Positions 10,828 through 20,010 of a stretch of 20,133 bases of DNA are shown here, one piece after another. The notes under the pieces were generated by a model. That model did no database searches and was not told the DNA's origin. It worked only from the letters and a program-made list of their open reading frames with translations. Positions within the stretch are counted from its first letter, which is position 1. Each line of letters opens with the position of its first letter. The stretch spans positions 1 through 20,133 of the IMG/VR virus record IMGVR_UViG_3300007276_000416. One strand, given 5' to 3'. Origin of the DNA: a virus. Made by a program: the position numbers and the translations under genes.

Positions 10828-11754
10828 TTACACAGCGGTTACGGTTTTAATCAATCCTCTGTACAATACTCCAGAATTCAAAATAACAGCAGTTAATGTT
10901 GGTATGTTGTAGGTACGAATACCTAAAACTTCCCCAGCTCCTACTGCAACAACAGTTCCAGTATATTTTCCTGCGCTAGTTTCCACTATTGCCATCGCTG
11001 TAACAACTCCATCAACAGTATATTCTAAATCAGCATCAATCAACCCCTCCACAGGAGTTAATCCATCTGATGAAAGAACAACCGTAAAATCAATTGTTGT
11101 TGCTGCTGCTGCTGGAATTGAATCAAAAGAAACATCCACACCGTTAATTCCGTCAATTTCTTCTGGCGAAAAGTCTAACGAATCTCTAAGTGCGAAATCA
11201 TAATTTTGATCCCATTGAATTCTATCCAGTAATTGAATAGAGAATGATTTAGACTCAGGATCGCCTCCTAAAGTCTTGGTATTTGTAAGCATCGCAATTG
11301 CTTGCCCAGCTGTAAACCCTCTGTAATCTCCTCCGCTTGTAACTGCAAGCCTCCAGTTGCCCTCTTCATCTGCAAAAATGAAGTCTAACGCTTTAAAGGA
11401 AGTCAGTTTAGACATTTCCTTATAGAACTCATGACCTTCCTCGTATCCAAACTTGTACTTAGGAAGCCCTAGAGTGTTTAAACGGTCAACGCCTCTAGTG
11501 TTAGTTGTAATAGCGTCTTCACTTGATTCATTATCAAATGATTCAGCTCCAATTAAAGGGATAAATTTCCCTAATTGAATCTGACTATCAATATACGCTT
11601 TGTTGAATTCCGTTTCTTTTGGAATAACAAATCCTTTCTGAATACCGATTACATGAAGTGGTGTTCCCCATTCTATCTGGCATCCTAATTTACCTGTGTC
11701 GGCGTTTGCTCCTCCGCAAGAGGTTTTTTTGCCAACTATTGTTTCTAAACTCAT
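10828..11754 (-). CDS. Probable major tail protein with C-terminal Ig-like domain
   Basis: A 308-aa protein. Residues 1-200 contain CGGANADTGKLGC near the start, then LHVIGIQKGFVIPKETEF (33-50), IPLIGAESF (65-73) and a segment ending near 190. This layout matches a tail or virion protein family I recall from Bacteroidota phages. Residues about 205-287 form a separate Val/Thr/Ala-rich beta domain (FTVVLSSDGLTPVEGLIDAD, then AGKYTGTVVAVGAG) typical of Ig-like or Big-type decorations on major tail proteins. The start ATG shares one base with the stop of the 59-aa gene (TAATG). A strong terminator follows the gene, as expected for a highly expressed structural protein. The position before the tape-measure module supports the tail-tube role; it is not proven by a specific motif. 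Confidence 0.68.
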   Translation of the reverse strand: MSLETIVGKKTSCGGANADTGKLGCQIEWGTPLHVIGIQKGFVIPKETEFNKAYIDSQIQLGKFIPLIGAESFDNESSEDAITTNTRGVDRLNTLGLPKYKFGYEEGHEFYKEMSKLTSFKALDFIFADEEGNWRLAVTSGGDYRGFTAGQAIAMLTNTKTLGGDPESKSFSIQLLDRIQWDQNYDFALRDSLDFSPEEIDGINGVDVSFDSIPAAAATTIDFTVVLSSDGLTPVEGLIDADLEYTVDGVVTAMAIVETSAGKYTGTVVAVGAGEVLGIRTYNIPTLTAVILNSGVLYRGLIKTVTAV

Positions 11755-11933
11755 TATTTAAGTTTTTTTGTATTAATTAAATGATCGATTGATTTTTTGT
11801 TTTCGCTTTCAAATACGTCTCCAACCTTATACGTCACCGTTCCAGTTTTACCCCCATATCCAATTTTGAATTCATCAATCACGATCCCTTTGTACGTTTT
11901 AGTACTTTTTGTGCTTTTTGTTTTTCTTGCCAT
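11754..11933 (-). CDS. Small basic protein between neck and tail-tube genes
   Basis: A 59-aa protein that starts MARKTKSTKSTKTYKG and continues with a beta-like stretch (IVIDEFKIGYGG, then TVTYKVGDVFES). The first 15 residues are a Lys/Thr/Ser-rich, probably disordered tail; the rest could form a small beta fold. The ATG lies 4 nt below the previous stop codon, and its TAA overlaps the next ATG as TAATG, so it is very likely translated. I do not recognise a family. The position suggests a minor head-tail or tail-tube accessory. It is short enough to be missed by automatic gene calling. Confidence 0.7.
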   Translation of the reverse strand: MARKTKSTKSTKTYKGIVIDEFKIGYGGKTGTVTYKVGDVFESENKKSIDHLINTKKLK

Positions 11934-15498: not shown

Positions 15499-15568
15499 AT
15501 CTAGTTTTCTTTATAGGTTCGTAATAGTAATTTAATCCTGTTATTGAGTTGTATGAAAGTCTTAGCAT
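15425..15568 (-). CDS. Possible 47-aa ORF overlapping the protease start (uncertain)
   Basis: An ATG forming a TAATG junction with the stop of the 35-aa gene opens a 47-codon frame (MLRLSYNSITGLNYYYEP...) that runs 74 nt into the protease gene in another frame. The stop-start junction is the same kind used by well-supported genes in this window, which argues for translation. The long overlap and lack of a recognisable family argue against. It may simply be a reinitiation leader for the protease. No other gene explains the 69 bases between 15499 and 15567. Confidence 0.2.
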   Translation of the reverse strand: MLRLSYNSITGLNYYYEPIKKTRYENRHSKSFKNEARGVQMAQGERR

Positions 15569-15675
15569 TATTTTTTCTTTTTAACAAGTTCTCTTTCTCT
15601 TGATTCAGTTTTTTTTTGCTTATCCTTAAACATCTTTTTTATTTTTTCTGCCTTTTCTTTATCAACTTTATCCAT
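15568..15675 (-). CDS. 35-aa lysine/glutamate-rich protein between portal and protease
   Basis: A short open frame starts at ATG 15673-15675, 10 nt below the portal stop codon, and ends at TAA 15568-15570. The product starts MDKVDKEKAEKIKKMF and is more than one third lysine, with many Glu and no aromatic residue except one Phe. It would be a single charged helix, strongly basic at the end (ELVKKKK). It resembles nothing I can name; a highly charged helix at this position could bind DNA, RNA or the portal, or act in scaffolding. The spacing and the filled gap between two clear head genes support it as real, though composition alone is weak evidence. Confidence 0.5.
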   Translation of the reverse strand: MDKVDKEKAEKIKKMFKDKQKKTESRERELVKKKK

Positions 15676-17148: not shown

Positions 17149-18489
17149 CTATACTTTTATACTAAGATAACCGACTAAATAACTAATAATATATCTAAGA
17201 GCATCCATTAAATGATCATCAGCTTTCAATGGAGAATCTATGCTTTTTCCGTTTTTATCAATTTCCCAAGAATAATTATCATATTCAAATGAAAGGTTGT
17301 CGCTAGGTACATAATAAATCGTAAATCCTTGAACTAATGTTATACCAACTTCAACTGAACCAGAGCCTTTTGTTGCTCCAATTGCCATATAACCCTCATT
17401 CAATAAGAGGTCAAGATACGATTGTTTTGCTGAATCTCCAACTAAAATTGACTCTCCATGAATAATGTTTGGTACTCGAAGCTTTACGGCTGTTGGTAAG
17501 GAATCTGCAATATCCTGAAGTGGTGTGTACATTCTTTCAGTAATATAAAAAGCTCCATCGCCATCATACTTAACTTCCATGCAGGCCGTCGGATTACTAG
17601 CTCCAAAATCCATTCCGAAATAAGATGTTAAATCTATACCATCAAAATGTTCTTGCGTGATCGGAATCCACCCCTTATAAATCTTATTAGGTTTTTCAGA
17701 ACCTACACCTAAACCATAAACAAGCCAATGCCAGACATCAGCTGTTCCTTGTGCTATGTTATCTGAATTCGGAGGAGGTTCGTTTCCTACTGCAATCGGT
17801 TTTCCATTATACAAGCATCTAAATCCATCAAATTCATAGCTTCCAGTTTCCCAAGGCTCGTAAGATCTTAGTCTTTTAACTATGTTCGGCGGACAAAATG
17901 CGTTATTCTCGAAATTTGAATGAATAAATATTGTTTCGCTGTTCTGTCTATATGTTTCTAGCCAAAAGTTTTTACTAGGATTATAATCGCAAAAAACTCT
18001 TTCAGCTGTTCTCTGTGTGATTTGTAAGTAAACATCCTTACGGAATTCCGTAACTTCATTGAAAAAAGAAATATCTTGCGTTAATCCGTGAACTTTGCCA
18101 GGAGAATCAGCTCCCTCAAATATAATTTTAGATCCAGTTGGAACGTATGTAAAGCTGCCAGCTTGCTTATTTTCCCTAATATCTTTGAAAATCTTATAAT
18201 CAAACATGATTATATTCTTAAAATCTTCCATTACAGTAGCTCTACAATTAACCTTTGTAGCTCTCCAAACTGTTATTTTAAGATTTGTTCGAGAAACCAT
18301 CTCAAGAAGTAGCAGCTGAAGTATTGAGTATGTTTTACTAGAACGAGAGCCTCCCATAGACACAATTTGCGTGTATCTGTATTCTGGCTCAACATCAATA
18401 TTCTTAGAGTGATCTATCTCAAATTGATTCTTTGCCTCATGGTAAACCTCGTATGTTTTTTGGAAAGTATATGAAACATCTATATCCAT
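17149..18489 (-). CDS. terL: Terminase large subunit (DNA-packaging ATPase/nuclease)
   Basis: A 446-aa motor that pumps DNA into the prohead and cuts concatemers. The ATPase domain has a Walker A motif GGSRSSKT (46-53) and a Walker B DISFFNE (139-145) with catalytic Glu145. The VHGLTQD stretch precedes it, as in PBSX/SPP1-type terminases. The RNase H-like nuclease domain has FGMDFG (Asp294), VGDSA (Asp352) and KADDHLMDA (Asp424, Asp425, Asp429). Length and motif order are normal for an intact enzyme. Its ATG shares one base with the stop of the VRR-NUC gene. The nuclease type points towards headful or cohesive-end packaging, which I cannot separate from this sequence. Confidence 0.97.
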   Translation of the reverse strand: MDIDVSYTFQKTYEVYHEAKNQFEIDHSKNIDVEPEYRYTQIVSMGGSRSSKTYSILQLLLLEMVSRTNLKITVWRATKVNCRATVMEDFKNIIMFDYKIFKDIRENKQAGSFTYVPTGSKIIFEGADSPGKVHGLTQDISFFNEVTEFRKDVYLQITQRTAERVFCDYNPSKNFWLETYRQNSETIFIHSNFENNAFCPPNIVKRLRSYEPWETGSYEFDGFRCLYNGKPIAVGNEPPPNSDNIAQGTADVWHWLVYGLGVGSEKPNKIYKGWIPITQEHFDGIDLTSYFGMDFGASNPTACMEVKYDGDGAFYITERMYTPLQDIADSLPTAVKLRVPNIIHGESILVGDSAKQSYLDLLLNEGYMAIGATKGSGSVEVGITLVQGFTIYYVPSDNLSFEYDNYSWEIDKNGKSIDSPLKADDHLMDALRYIISYLVGYLSIKV

Positions 18490-18854
18490 TAATTAATTAG
18501 TGTTTTAATTATTGTTTTGAAAGATGCTAAACTTGTTATCTTTAAATAAATAAAGCCCTGTTCCTGTACTTTGTCCCTCCAAGCTTTTTGATTTTTTTGC
18601 AGTAATTTTGTATCGTCTTTTTTTAGTTCAATCATAAAAGCTGAACCACTATAAAGTAGAATTAAATCGCTTACACCTGAAACAACACCAGTTAATCTCA
18701 GTATCTTTCCTTGTTTTCCGCCTCTATCCCCTCCGTTTGGAACAGCAAATAACAACCCTCTTAGTAATGGGTATGTGTTATGAAACCAAAAAACACACTT
18801 CTGTTGGAGAGCATCCTCTGATTGTCCCTGTACGTCTATGTGTATATTTGTCAT
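18489..18854 (-). CDS. VRR-NUC domain nuclease
   Basis: A 121-aa single-domain protein of the VRR-NUC branch of PD-(D/E)xK nucleases. Visible motifs are an early Glu (E13), FAVPNGG (36-42), GVVSGVSDLILL (56-67) with catalytic Asp63, ELK (76-78) with Glu76 and Lys78, Q89 followed by AW, and GFIYLKI (100-106). Family members cut structured or branched DNA, and phages often carry one near replication or packaging genes. Here the gene ends in a TAATG junction with the large terminase, so it may trim or resolve DNA before packaging. That link is inference from position. The start lies 2 nt beyond the stop of the preceding 75-aa gene, with one intervening base. Confidence 0.88.
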   Translation of the reverse strand: MTNIHIDVQGQSEDALQQKCVFWFHNTYPLLRGLLFAVPNGGDRGGKQGKILRLTGVVSGVSDLILLYSGSAFMIELKKDDTKLLQKNQKAWRDKVQEQGFIYLKITSLASFKTIIKTLIN

Positions 18855-19083: not shown

Positions 19084-19328
19084 TATTTAAATAATTGGTT
19101 AATTATATTTTGTCTTTGTAGTTCAGCTCCAATATCTGCAATATGCTCAAGCCCATACTCTATCTCATAAATCTCAAACTTATCTTTATTCTCCATTAAT
19201 TCATTAGATAATGTTGTCAACTCTAAAAATGTATTAGAGCTATCTGCGTCTATTAGGATTTCAGATAATGTTCTTTTTGATTCCATGGTTGTTATGTGTA
19301 TGTATTCTGCTAATGTCATGCATTTCAT
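19083..19328 (-). CDS. Small acidic hypothetical protein
   Basis: An 81-aa, mostly helical and acidic protein (TLSEILIDADSSNTFLEL, then NKDKFEIYEIEYGLEHIAD). The first ATG overlaps the stop of the 128-aa gene by four bases (ATGA); a second ATG three codons later is also possible. No domain is recognisable. It belongs to the overlapping cluster upstream of the terminase genes. Confidence 0.55.
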   Translation of the reverse strand: MKCMTLAEYIHITTMESKRTLSEILIDADSSNTFLELTTLSNELMENKDKFEIYEIEYGLEHIADIGAELQRQNIINQLFK

Positions 19329-19711
19329 TTCTTATCTCCTAGATTTATTTGAATATTTATTGTTTTATCCACTTTCTCTCCACGCTCTCCAGCTGTTCTT
19401 ATTACTTTTGGCTTAAAGAATTCCATCGCTTTTAAGTAAATCCGCATAAATTCCCTGTCTGGTAGTTGGGTTAGTATTTTATTAAACTTTTCGGCGTGTT
19501 CATTATCCATTGCCGACCTCATTTCCTCCCAAGTTTTTACCTTGCTCGCAGGAACAATATTTGTATCTAATGTTTTCTCAGTGAATGTCATGGTTCTTTC
19601 AATAACATTTGCTGTTTGAGCCAATGCTTTAGCGAAAATATCATCATTTAAAACAATAGCTTCTACTTCCTCGATACCATCCTTAATCGATTTAGGTTTT
19701 TTCCCCTTCAC
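19325..19711 (-). CDS. Candidate small terminase subunit
   Basis: A 128-aa protein read from a GTG start (19709-19711) that lies inside the end of the upstream gene (20-nt overlap). The first ATG in frame is only at residue 41, so the GTG is preferred to keep the Lys-rich start (KGKKPKSIKDG). The C-terminal 55 residues include LPDREFMRIYLKAMEFFKPK and then IRTAGERGEKVDKTINIQINL. This pattern resembles the end of putative small terminase or related DNA-binding phage proteins in Bacteroidota. Position, three genes above the nuclease and terminase, fits. No helix-turn-helix is obvious in the first half, so the assignment is tentative. Confidence 0.45.
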   Translation of the reverse strand: MKGKKPKSIKDGIEEVEAIVLNDDIFAKALAQTANVIERTMTFTEKTLDTNIVPASKVKTWEEMRSAMDNEHAEKFNKILTQLPDREFMRIYLKAMEFFKPKVIRTAGERGEKVDKTINIQINLGDKK

Positions 19712-19850
19712 TTCGTGCTATTTTTACATAGTTAATCATAAAAGCTTCTAAGGTTTCAGTCATATCCAAACCCCTCTTATAAAGCTCAGATGCAAATTCC
19801 TCTTTTACTTGAGCGTCAAATCTAAATGATGTGTTTACCCCTTTGGCCAT
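19692..19850 (-). CDS. Ribbon-helix-helix (CopG/Arc-like) small DNA-binding protein
   Basis: A 52-aa protein too short for routine gene calling. The sequence VNTSFRFDAQVKEEFASE (5-22), then KRGLDMTETLEAFMINYV (25-42) fits the ribbon-helix-helix plan: a beta strand, a helix, a Gly turn and a second helix with Thr-Glu-x-Leu. Such proteins bind operators as dimers. The start overlaps the end of the 40-aa gene by 16 nt, and the end overlaps the candidate small terminase gene by 20 nt. It is the best candidate regulator for the palindromic operator just upstream, but that pairing is inference. Short Arc-like proteins can also be DNA-binding packaging factors. Confidence 0.7.
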   Translation of the reverse strand: MAKGVNTSFRFDAQVKEEFASELYKRGLDMTETLEAFMINYVKIARSEGEKT

Positions 19851-19957
19851 TGTAGTTGTATTGCGTTTTTCTCAAATTCATCTCTTCTAACTTTTGGCGC
19901 TACAACTCCAGCAACGCCTAGAAGTCCAACTCTTTTTAAAAAATCTTTTCTGTTCAT
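19835..19957 (-). CDS. 40-aa microprotein with Tat-signal-like N-terminus
   Basis: The first gene after the promoter candidate starts at ATG 19955-19957 and ends at TAA 19835-19837. It begins NRKDFLKRVGLLGVAGVVAP, which resembles a twin-arginine (Tat) signal (R-R/K-x-F-L-K followed by a short hydrophobic stretch), with KVRRDEFEKNAIQLQWPKG after it. There is little mature protein beyond the signal. It might be a truncated host-like gene, a phage peptide that only inserts in the membrane, or a chance resemblance. It overlaps the ribbon-helix-helix gene by 16 nt in another frame, which supports both as being translated. Small Tat-signal-like peptides are annotated in some Bacteroidota phages, to my knowledge without a known function. 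Confidence 0.6.
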   Translation of the reverse strand: MNRKDFLKRVGLLGVAGVVAPKVRRDEFEKNAIQLQWPKG

Positions 19958-19968
19958 GATTTTTGGTT

Positions 19969-19982
19969 TTCGTATATACGAA
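19969..19982. repeat. 14-bp perfect palindrome at the promoter start (possible operator)
   Basis: TTCGTATATACGAA is a perfect inverted repeat located immediately downstream of and partly over the -7 box of the promoter candidate. A protein bound here would block initiation. It is 12 nt above the first ATG of the cluster. It may be the target of the ribbon-helix-helix protein encoded below, or of a phage or host repressor outside the window. Confidence 0.6.
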
Positions 19983-20010
19983 GATACGCCATCACCTAAT
20001 AATATGCAAA
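19979..20010 (-). promoter_or_regulatory. Bacteroidota-type promoter of the packaging gene cluster
   Basis: On the minus strand TTTG (20010-20007), exactly 20 bases, then TATCTTCG (19986-19979) match the Bacteroidota -33/-7 pattern TTTG / TAnnTTTG with one mismatch. The predicted transcript starts about 15 nt above the 40-aa gene. The palindrome at 19969-19982 overlaps its -7 box. This is the best promoter candidate in the window and sits at the head of the whole late-gene series. Confidence 0.65.

Follow-up and report, generated by a model that had tools for sequence, protein, structure and literature searches.

Tat signal peptides are described by the curated model TIGR01409 (TAT_signal_seq), and their canonical motif carries two consecutive arginines (R-R). 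According to a study on SufI of E. coli, lysine is tolerated in place of either motif arginine, transport being slower but not blocked (PMC1182353). Tat-type ORFs as such are not new in phages: CcrRogue_gp023 is annotated as a "putative TAT signal protein". The titles and abstract beginnings retrieved for phage Tat leaders and their motif contained nothing on the subject, and this literature, as far as it was covered, gave no description of (i) an isolated signal encoded first in a packaging operon or (ii) identical leaders on unrelated genes.

The locus analyzed here belongs to a 20,133-base IMG/VR virus record (the window), which includes genes for the terminase large subunit (TerL), portal and capsid. 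The initial annotation had placed a 40-aa Tat-signal-like microprotein at positions 19835..19957, as the first gene of a packaging operon. An ORF of this size was found there on the minus strand, running from an ATG start to a TAA stop and encoding the product MNRKDFLKRVGLLGVAGVVAPKVRRDEFEKNAIQLQWPKG; it is referred to below as the leader.

Tat-type signal and coding character of the leader ORF

Codons 3-8 of the leader (19934..19951, minus strand) specify the twin-basic motif R-K-D-F-L-K, and codons 10-20 (19898..19930, minus strand) a hydrophobic segment, VGLLGVAGVVA, with P next. By eye, the peptide has no good signal-peptidase site, and no cargo domain was detected in the ORF by sequence. 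TIGR01409 matched residues 5-21 of the peptide with 17.5 bits (curated cut-off 16.7). In a six-frame search the leader scored 16.6 bits, or 16.9 bits with its neighbours in frame (cut-off 16.7), and it was the single match of the model in the whole window record. The motif is R-K, one arginine short of the canonical form. The hydrophobic stretch after it reaches a 12-residue Kyte-Doolittle maximum of 2.1; the 18-residue hydropathy maximum is just 1.3, which is low for a stable membrane anchor.

A profile of 66 other viral Tat leaders gave the window leader 31.0 bits, a score that is partly the motif itself, since the profile was trained on motif-selected leaders. With the same profile, 200 dinucleotide shuffles of the window, comprising 105,509 starts, gave at most 11.0 bits; the next best start in the window reached 6.5 bits, and among 14,696 starts from 72 relative loci (some contigs being present twice) the maximum was 9.4 bits. 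The codon log-odds of the leader is 0.349 per codon; leave-one-out values of six small window genes are 0.12-0.27, and one of the 106 other window ORFs, perhaps itself a gene, scored higher. Coding-like codons would also be expected of a fresh insertion without usefulness. The leader ORF is not a chance frame, because it matches the Tat model, stands far above the shuffled starts in the profile search and has phage-like codons. The proposed Tat-signal character is borne out by the curated model, the leader profile and the codon composition; the motif departs from it, being R-K and not R-R.

No whole-peptide homologue was detected by tblastn in 50,697 phage records (E up to 10), and searches of Pfam and PHROGs with the peptide gave no match.

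The packaging operon, its promoter and related operons

The operon comprises, in order, (i) the leader, (ii) a gene for a ribbon-helix-helix (RHH) protein, (iii) a TerS-like gene, (iv) two small ORFs, (v) a VRR-NUC-like gene and (vi) the TerL gene. Successive genes overlap by 16, 20, 4 and 1 nt, are then separated by a gap of one, and finally overlap by 1 nt, so the 16-nt overlap of the leader with the RHH gene fits the style of the other joins. Within the window, the leader is the first gene of this operon; the record ends 176 nt upstream of its ATG, and a further gene may lie beyond that end.

The next gene (19692..19850, minus strand), which begins 16 nt inside the leader, encodes a 52-aa product that, by its profile match, is a ParG/Arc-like RHH protein: a 27-row profile matched ParG (1p94) at E 4e-6 and, weakly, 2kel and 4aai, RHH proteins of archaeal viruses. 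Its structural model consists of two helices (mean pLDDT 86.8), and Foldseek returned weak matches (all E > 0.9), among them Arc, CopG and MatP. The conserved gene that follows (19325..19711, minus strand; GTG start) encodes a 128-aa protein that we call TerS-like from its position, its family matches all lying below cut-off. One comparison of this protein, with AcrIC5, gave E 0.0031 and 18 bits, below the cut-off of 27. The VRR-NUC-like nuclease (18489..18854, minus strand; 22 bits, cut-off 23.8) matched phrog_824, of unknown function (1.9e-28), and an endonuclease family (5.2e-10) in PHROGs, and TerL (17149..18489, minus strand) was identified by Pfam and PHROG searches. Elsewhere on the minus strand of the window, two small ORFs with coding-like codons, 15568-15675 (35 aa) and 11754-11933 (59 aa), are located in intergenic gaps.

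A -7 box of the Bacteroidota type, TATCTTCG (19979..19986, minus strand), lies 21 nt before the leader ATG and is one base off TAnnTTTG. A candidate -33 element, TTTG (20007..20010, minus strand), is located 20 nt before this box. The -7 box fits the Bacteroidota promoter consensus, and from this promoter type the phage host is probably a member of the Bacteroidota. The -7 box overlaps a perfect palindrome, TTCGTATATACGAA (19969..19982); at this place the window reads TATCTTCGTATATACGAA. In the nearest relatives the box, there in the form TAnnTTTG, runs into the palindrome TTTGTATATACA, i.e. the window palindrome is kept in part. The palindrome may be an autoregulatory operator, a candidate site for the RHH protein. 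Palindromes similar to that of the nearest relatives were also observed over the -7 box before the RHH gene in L002, L003, L008 and L011-L015.

Related operons were collected by TerL searches, which gave 17 and 68 loci (the second set partly from the same contigs); a search of genome contigs for relatives gave one partial TerL only. An RHH profile search found the gene in 54 of the 85 sources. These correspond to 35 distinct genes including that of the window, and hence to 34 relatives, some of them near-identical (L011/L015 and L012/L014) and three, in L201, L206 and L207, with weak matches of 25-28 bits. For the counts of boxes, upstream ORFs, slot contents and hydrophobic ORFs given below, RHH starts were set by hand, slightly off the profile search in L031, L167 and L179. 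In the relatives the operon usually begins with the RHH gene, with the TerS-like gene usually next, and leads on to TerL.

The promoter box is also found in the relatives. The 60 nt adjoining the RHH start contain TAnnTTTG in 24 of the 34, compared with 580 of 11,738 background stretches (4.9%); when the form of the window box is allowed, the counts are 25/34 and 711/11,738, respectively. In the window itself, the 60 nt before the RHH ATG contain no box-like sequence. The simplest reading of the two arrangements is that the Tat ORF was gained between promoter and RHH gene, because the box lies directly before the RHH gene in the relatives and before the leader in the window.

A conserved place beside the packaging genes, which the initial annotation had proposed to look for, was not found: in all 34 related operons the region in front of the RHH gene, available over 120 nt or more in 28 of them, lacks a Tat-like ORF (the best start there scores 2.1 bits), and none of 16 related records has a TIGR01409 match anywhere. 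A loose motif scan of loci L154-L217 likewise revealed no Tat-like ORF at the operon start. As judged from this comparison, the leader was acquired at the operon head in this phage lineage and is an optional addition, not one of the conserved packaging genes, because none of the 34 relatives has it before the RHH gene and in 24 the box directly precedes that gene.

The position before the RHH gene was then compared as a slot. In 27 of the 34 relatives it contains no ATG-initiated ORF of at least 25 aa ending near the RHH start; such an ORF is present in the other seven (L014, L165, L171, L179, L201, L206 and L207), and is preceded by the box in L165, L179, L201 and L014. Two of these ORFs are hydrophobic. 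L179:190-354 encodes 54 aa (18-residue hydropathy 2.64), with the box 9 nt before its ATG and a 13-nt overlap with the RHH gene, and L201:169-288 encodes 39 aa (hydropathy 2.19), with the box 21 nt before it and a 5-nt gap to an RHH gene whose own match is weak. Neither is Tat-like, and both are unrelated to the window leader. The slot of L165 contains a 101-aa ORF that overlaps the RHH gene by 4 nt.

These arrangements favour the view that the operon head before the RHH gene is a slot that may take small accessory genes, membrane ones included. They lend it support and not proof, because short hydrophobic ORFs are common by chance here, so the case of L179 and L201 is built on the promoter box and the tight joins. 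The presence of a hydrophobic microprotein had initially been considered odd in a packaging cluster; with other ORFs of this kind in the same slot of L179 and L201, it is less so.

Between the RHH gene and TerL, hydrophobic ORFs of 35-62 aa (e.g., L008:4305-4421, L031:3125-3250 and L033:3625-3744) were counted in 10 of the 34 relatives on the coding strand and in 15 of the 34 on the opposite strand. With the control higher, this count is no evidence for membrane microproteins in that interval, and the candidate was rejected. The packaging operons of some relatives also encode proteins with CAP/SCP domains (PF00188 in 4 of 4 tested: L002:4381-4857, L003:1482-1967, L008:4409-4870 and L010:1475-1957); the L010 protein begins, by eye, with a lipoprotein-like signal, and none was seen in the operon of the window.

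Tat-type leaders on other phage genes

A motif scan of viral contigs yielded at least 119 stretches, a sample chosen by pattern, so that its rates do not describe viruses at large. The matches listed include 98 distinct ORFs. Of the 87 with R at position 3, 66 have a hydrophobic stretch, compared with one of the 11 with S at this position (Fisher 2.7e-5); within the same list the stretch is present in 13 of 25 R-K leaders and 53 of 62 R-R leaders. Fifty records, from the 67 loci first listed, were searched further: TIGR01409 matches at E up to 0.1 were obtained in 37 of them, 23 of which lie above the cut-off, and TerL matches in 19.

A closer leader pattern was found in four contigs, L063, L067, L072 and L128, in ORFs with other bodies. 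L067 is the best match to the window leader among those listed, with 16 of the first 22 residues in common. The ORFs of L035, L063, L067 and L072 (51-76 aa) combine a Tat-type signal with an R-M-R-I/C-like ending resembling tail-fibre repeats. This resemblance is based on matches of L035 to phage tail fibres and a weak PHROG match of L067 (E 0.0081), and was seen by eye in L063, which had no database match, and in L072. A search for promoter and leader together gave one contig, L218, a 389-kb record with a different, 61-aa leader ORF, and a leader followed by an ATG-GCN-AAR start at the distance of the RHH gene was found in L109 and L149.

Several such leaders are linked to packaging and head genes. 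Tat-type leaders are joined in frame to TerL in L043:6650-8023 and L073:1641-2423, and to a head maturation protease in L094:3789-4082. Matches to the L043 TerL were obtained in 1,504 phage records; in the 15 of these that were listed, the alignment begins only at residue 38-39, and the L043 leader is therefore an extra. In L036 a Tat-type ORF lies upstream of a possible TerS and TerL, and in L128 one begins 63 nt after TerL. Short Tat peptides next to terminase genes, which the initial annotation had suggested searching for, thus occur in unrelated phages (L036 and L128), and in none of the 34 related operons.

The pattern to which these data point is one of Tat-type leaders on many unrelated phage genes, some of whose products are expected to remain cytoplasmic; if such leaders are functional, phage assembly or takeover involves the host Tat system or inner membrane. 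One broader reading, which we regard as rather unlikely, would make them a mobile module of some 66 nucleotides beginning at the ATG, copies of which head unrelated phage genes, among them those for cytoplasmic proteins such as terminase and head protease, and tie assembly or packaging steps to the host inner membrane. The window ORF would then be a free-standing copy captured by the packaging operon, at a position occupied by different membrane microproteins in other phages of the group.

Closely matching Tat-type leaders, identical over up to 60 of 60 nt, were observed on ORFs with unrelated bodies in G022, G053 and G026 (L219-L224; the row L221:886-954 was left out of account). In these pairs the identity mostly extends from the ATG to approximately nucleotide 70, a few reaching some 20 nt upstream. 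Within its 84.5 kb, G022 has 13 matches to TIGR01409. Of 23 leader-like ORFs examined in the three records, 13 have inverted repeats with perfect arms of 13-15 bp, one variant being changed on both arms. L098 and L126, which also have 60/60 nt in common, lack such an inverted repeat, and none was seen in the window.

Possible explanations and comparison with known systems

We tentatively favour, at close to even confidence, the view that the leader is a genuine small cistron gained by this phage lineage at the head of its packaging operon and encoding an accessory Tat-type signal that carries no cargo and stays at the inner membrane. The lineage would have gained the cistron between the promoter of the late (packaging) operon and the gene of the RHH regulator, in a slot that takes small genes. 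The predicted product is a Tat-type signal without cargo, composed of the basic R-K-D-F-L-K n-region and a short hydrophobic stretch, with no obvious cleavage site. Upon firing of the promoter, the leader would be translated as the first protein made, and the peptide, presumably uncleaved, would dock at the inner membrane or the Tat receptor and stay there as an accessory membrane microprotein. It would have no role in DNA packaging itself and may benefit the phage; interference with Tat export and superinfection exclusion, both raised in the initial annotation, are conceivable uses. On this account, a microgene consisting of a signal alone can be accommodated at the head of a packaging operon. 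Two features speak against this view: among the leaders listed, a hydrophobic stretch is less frequent with R-K than with R-R, and the 18-residue hydropathy of the peptide is low for a stable anchor.

The main rival, which we consider possible and somewhat less probable, is a translated leader cistron whose peptide is idle: the truncated start of a Tat leader, placed past the promoter, that couples ribosomes to the RHH gene or is a decaying relic. The absence of a Tat-like ORF upstream of the RHH gene in the 34 relatives agrees with it, as do several features of the peptide. Among the matches listed, the similarity to the nearest leader, L067, stops after P-K and one similar residue, and of 63 complete leader ORFs that include a hydrophobic stretch, all but one exceed the 40 aa of the window leader (the shortest has 35 aa); the C-terminal half of the window leader resembles nothing found, the end being overprinted by the 16 nt of the RHH start. 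Against idleness, the signal part contains no stop or frameshift, its codon score is on a par with that of real genes, and a box with no such leader precedes the RHH gene in 24 of the 34 relatives. As no relative of the whole peptide was found in the records searched, selection on it is not measurable, and the membrane microprotein and the idle leader are not separable with certainty.

Three further readings are far less probable. The inverted repeats of other leaders prompted the proposal that the leader is an RNA or DNA hairpin element and the signal-like peptide arose by chance, which appears very unlikely. The 13-15 bp repeats of the 13 leader-like ORFs in G022, G053 and G026 are longer than in at least 98.5% of synonymous shuffles. 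For the window leader, folding of the first 90 nt is somewhat better than in synonymous shuffles (z -2.0; 3% do equally well) and than in dinucleotide shuffles (z -2.19; 6/200). The longest perfect arm in the window leader is, however, 4 bp (p 0.93), or 8 bp with wobbles (p 0.11), the 148 nt including the 5' region fold ordinarily (z -1.03, 26/200), and the median z over 92 leaders, window included, is -0.02. The hairpin is therefore not supported in the window.

Slightly less probable still is a fusion of the Tat signal to the RHH protein, as a membrane-tethered regulator, through -1 ribosomal frameshifting late in the leader. Relative to the leader, the RHH gene is in the -1 frame, which stays open for the seven codons preceding the RHH ATG, a stretch adjoining GAG AAA AAC in the leader frame; G-AAA-AAC is not known as a canonical slippery heptamer, three stops occur in the RHH frame just upstream, and no in-frame Tat-RHH fusion was seen upstream of the RHH genes of the 34 relatives. 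Least probable of all is a chance frame in the 5' untranslated region, with which the length of only 40 codons and the lack of conservation in the relatives examined would agree, but none of the 105,509 shuffled starts reaches half of the leader's profile score and its codons are coding-like.

Regarded as an accessory membrane microprotein or as an idle cistron, the leader may be compared with four described groups. It shares with the formate_TAT family (TIGR02811) the form of a small protein with a Tat signal, and matches it weakly and locally (13.5 bits); it is far below the cut-off of that family (48.45), which is described from the formate dehydrogenase region. Like bacterial leader or coupling cistrons, it is short, directly follows the promoter and overlaps the next start by 16 nt; unlike them, it shows by eye no attenuator-type terminator or stall motif and has a clear signal character. 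The small Tat-leader ORFs of phages (L035, L063, L067, L072 and CcrRogue_gp023) carry the same type of leader. The first four differ in having 51-76 aa, with a body after the signal and a tail-fibre-like end, no packaging gene among the neighbours read and no phrog_2 terminase match in their records, and CcrRogue_gp023 in its 576 nt. With Tat signal peptides (TIGR01409) the leader has in common a basic R-K-D-F-L-K n-region, a short hydrophobic stretch, an N-terminal location and a score above the cut-off; it is distinguished from them by R-K in place of R-R, by the lack of a cargo domain and of a clear cleavage site, and by its place at the head of a packaging operon.
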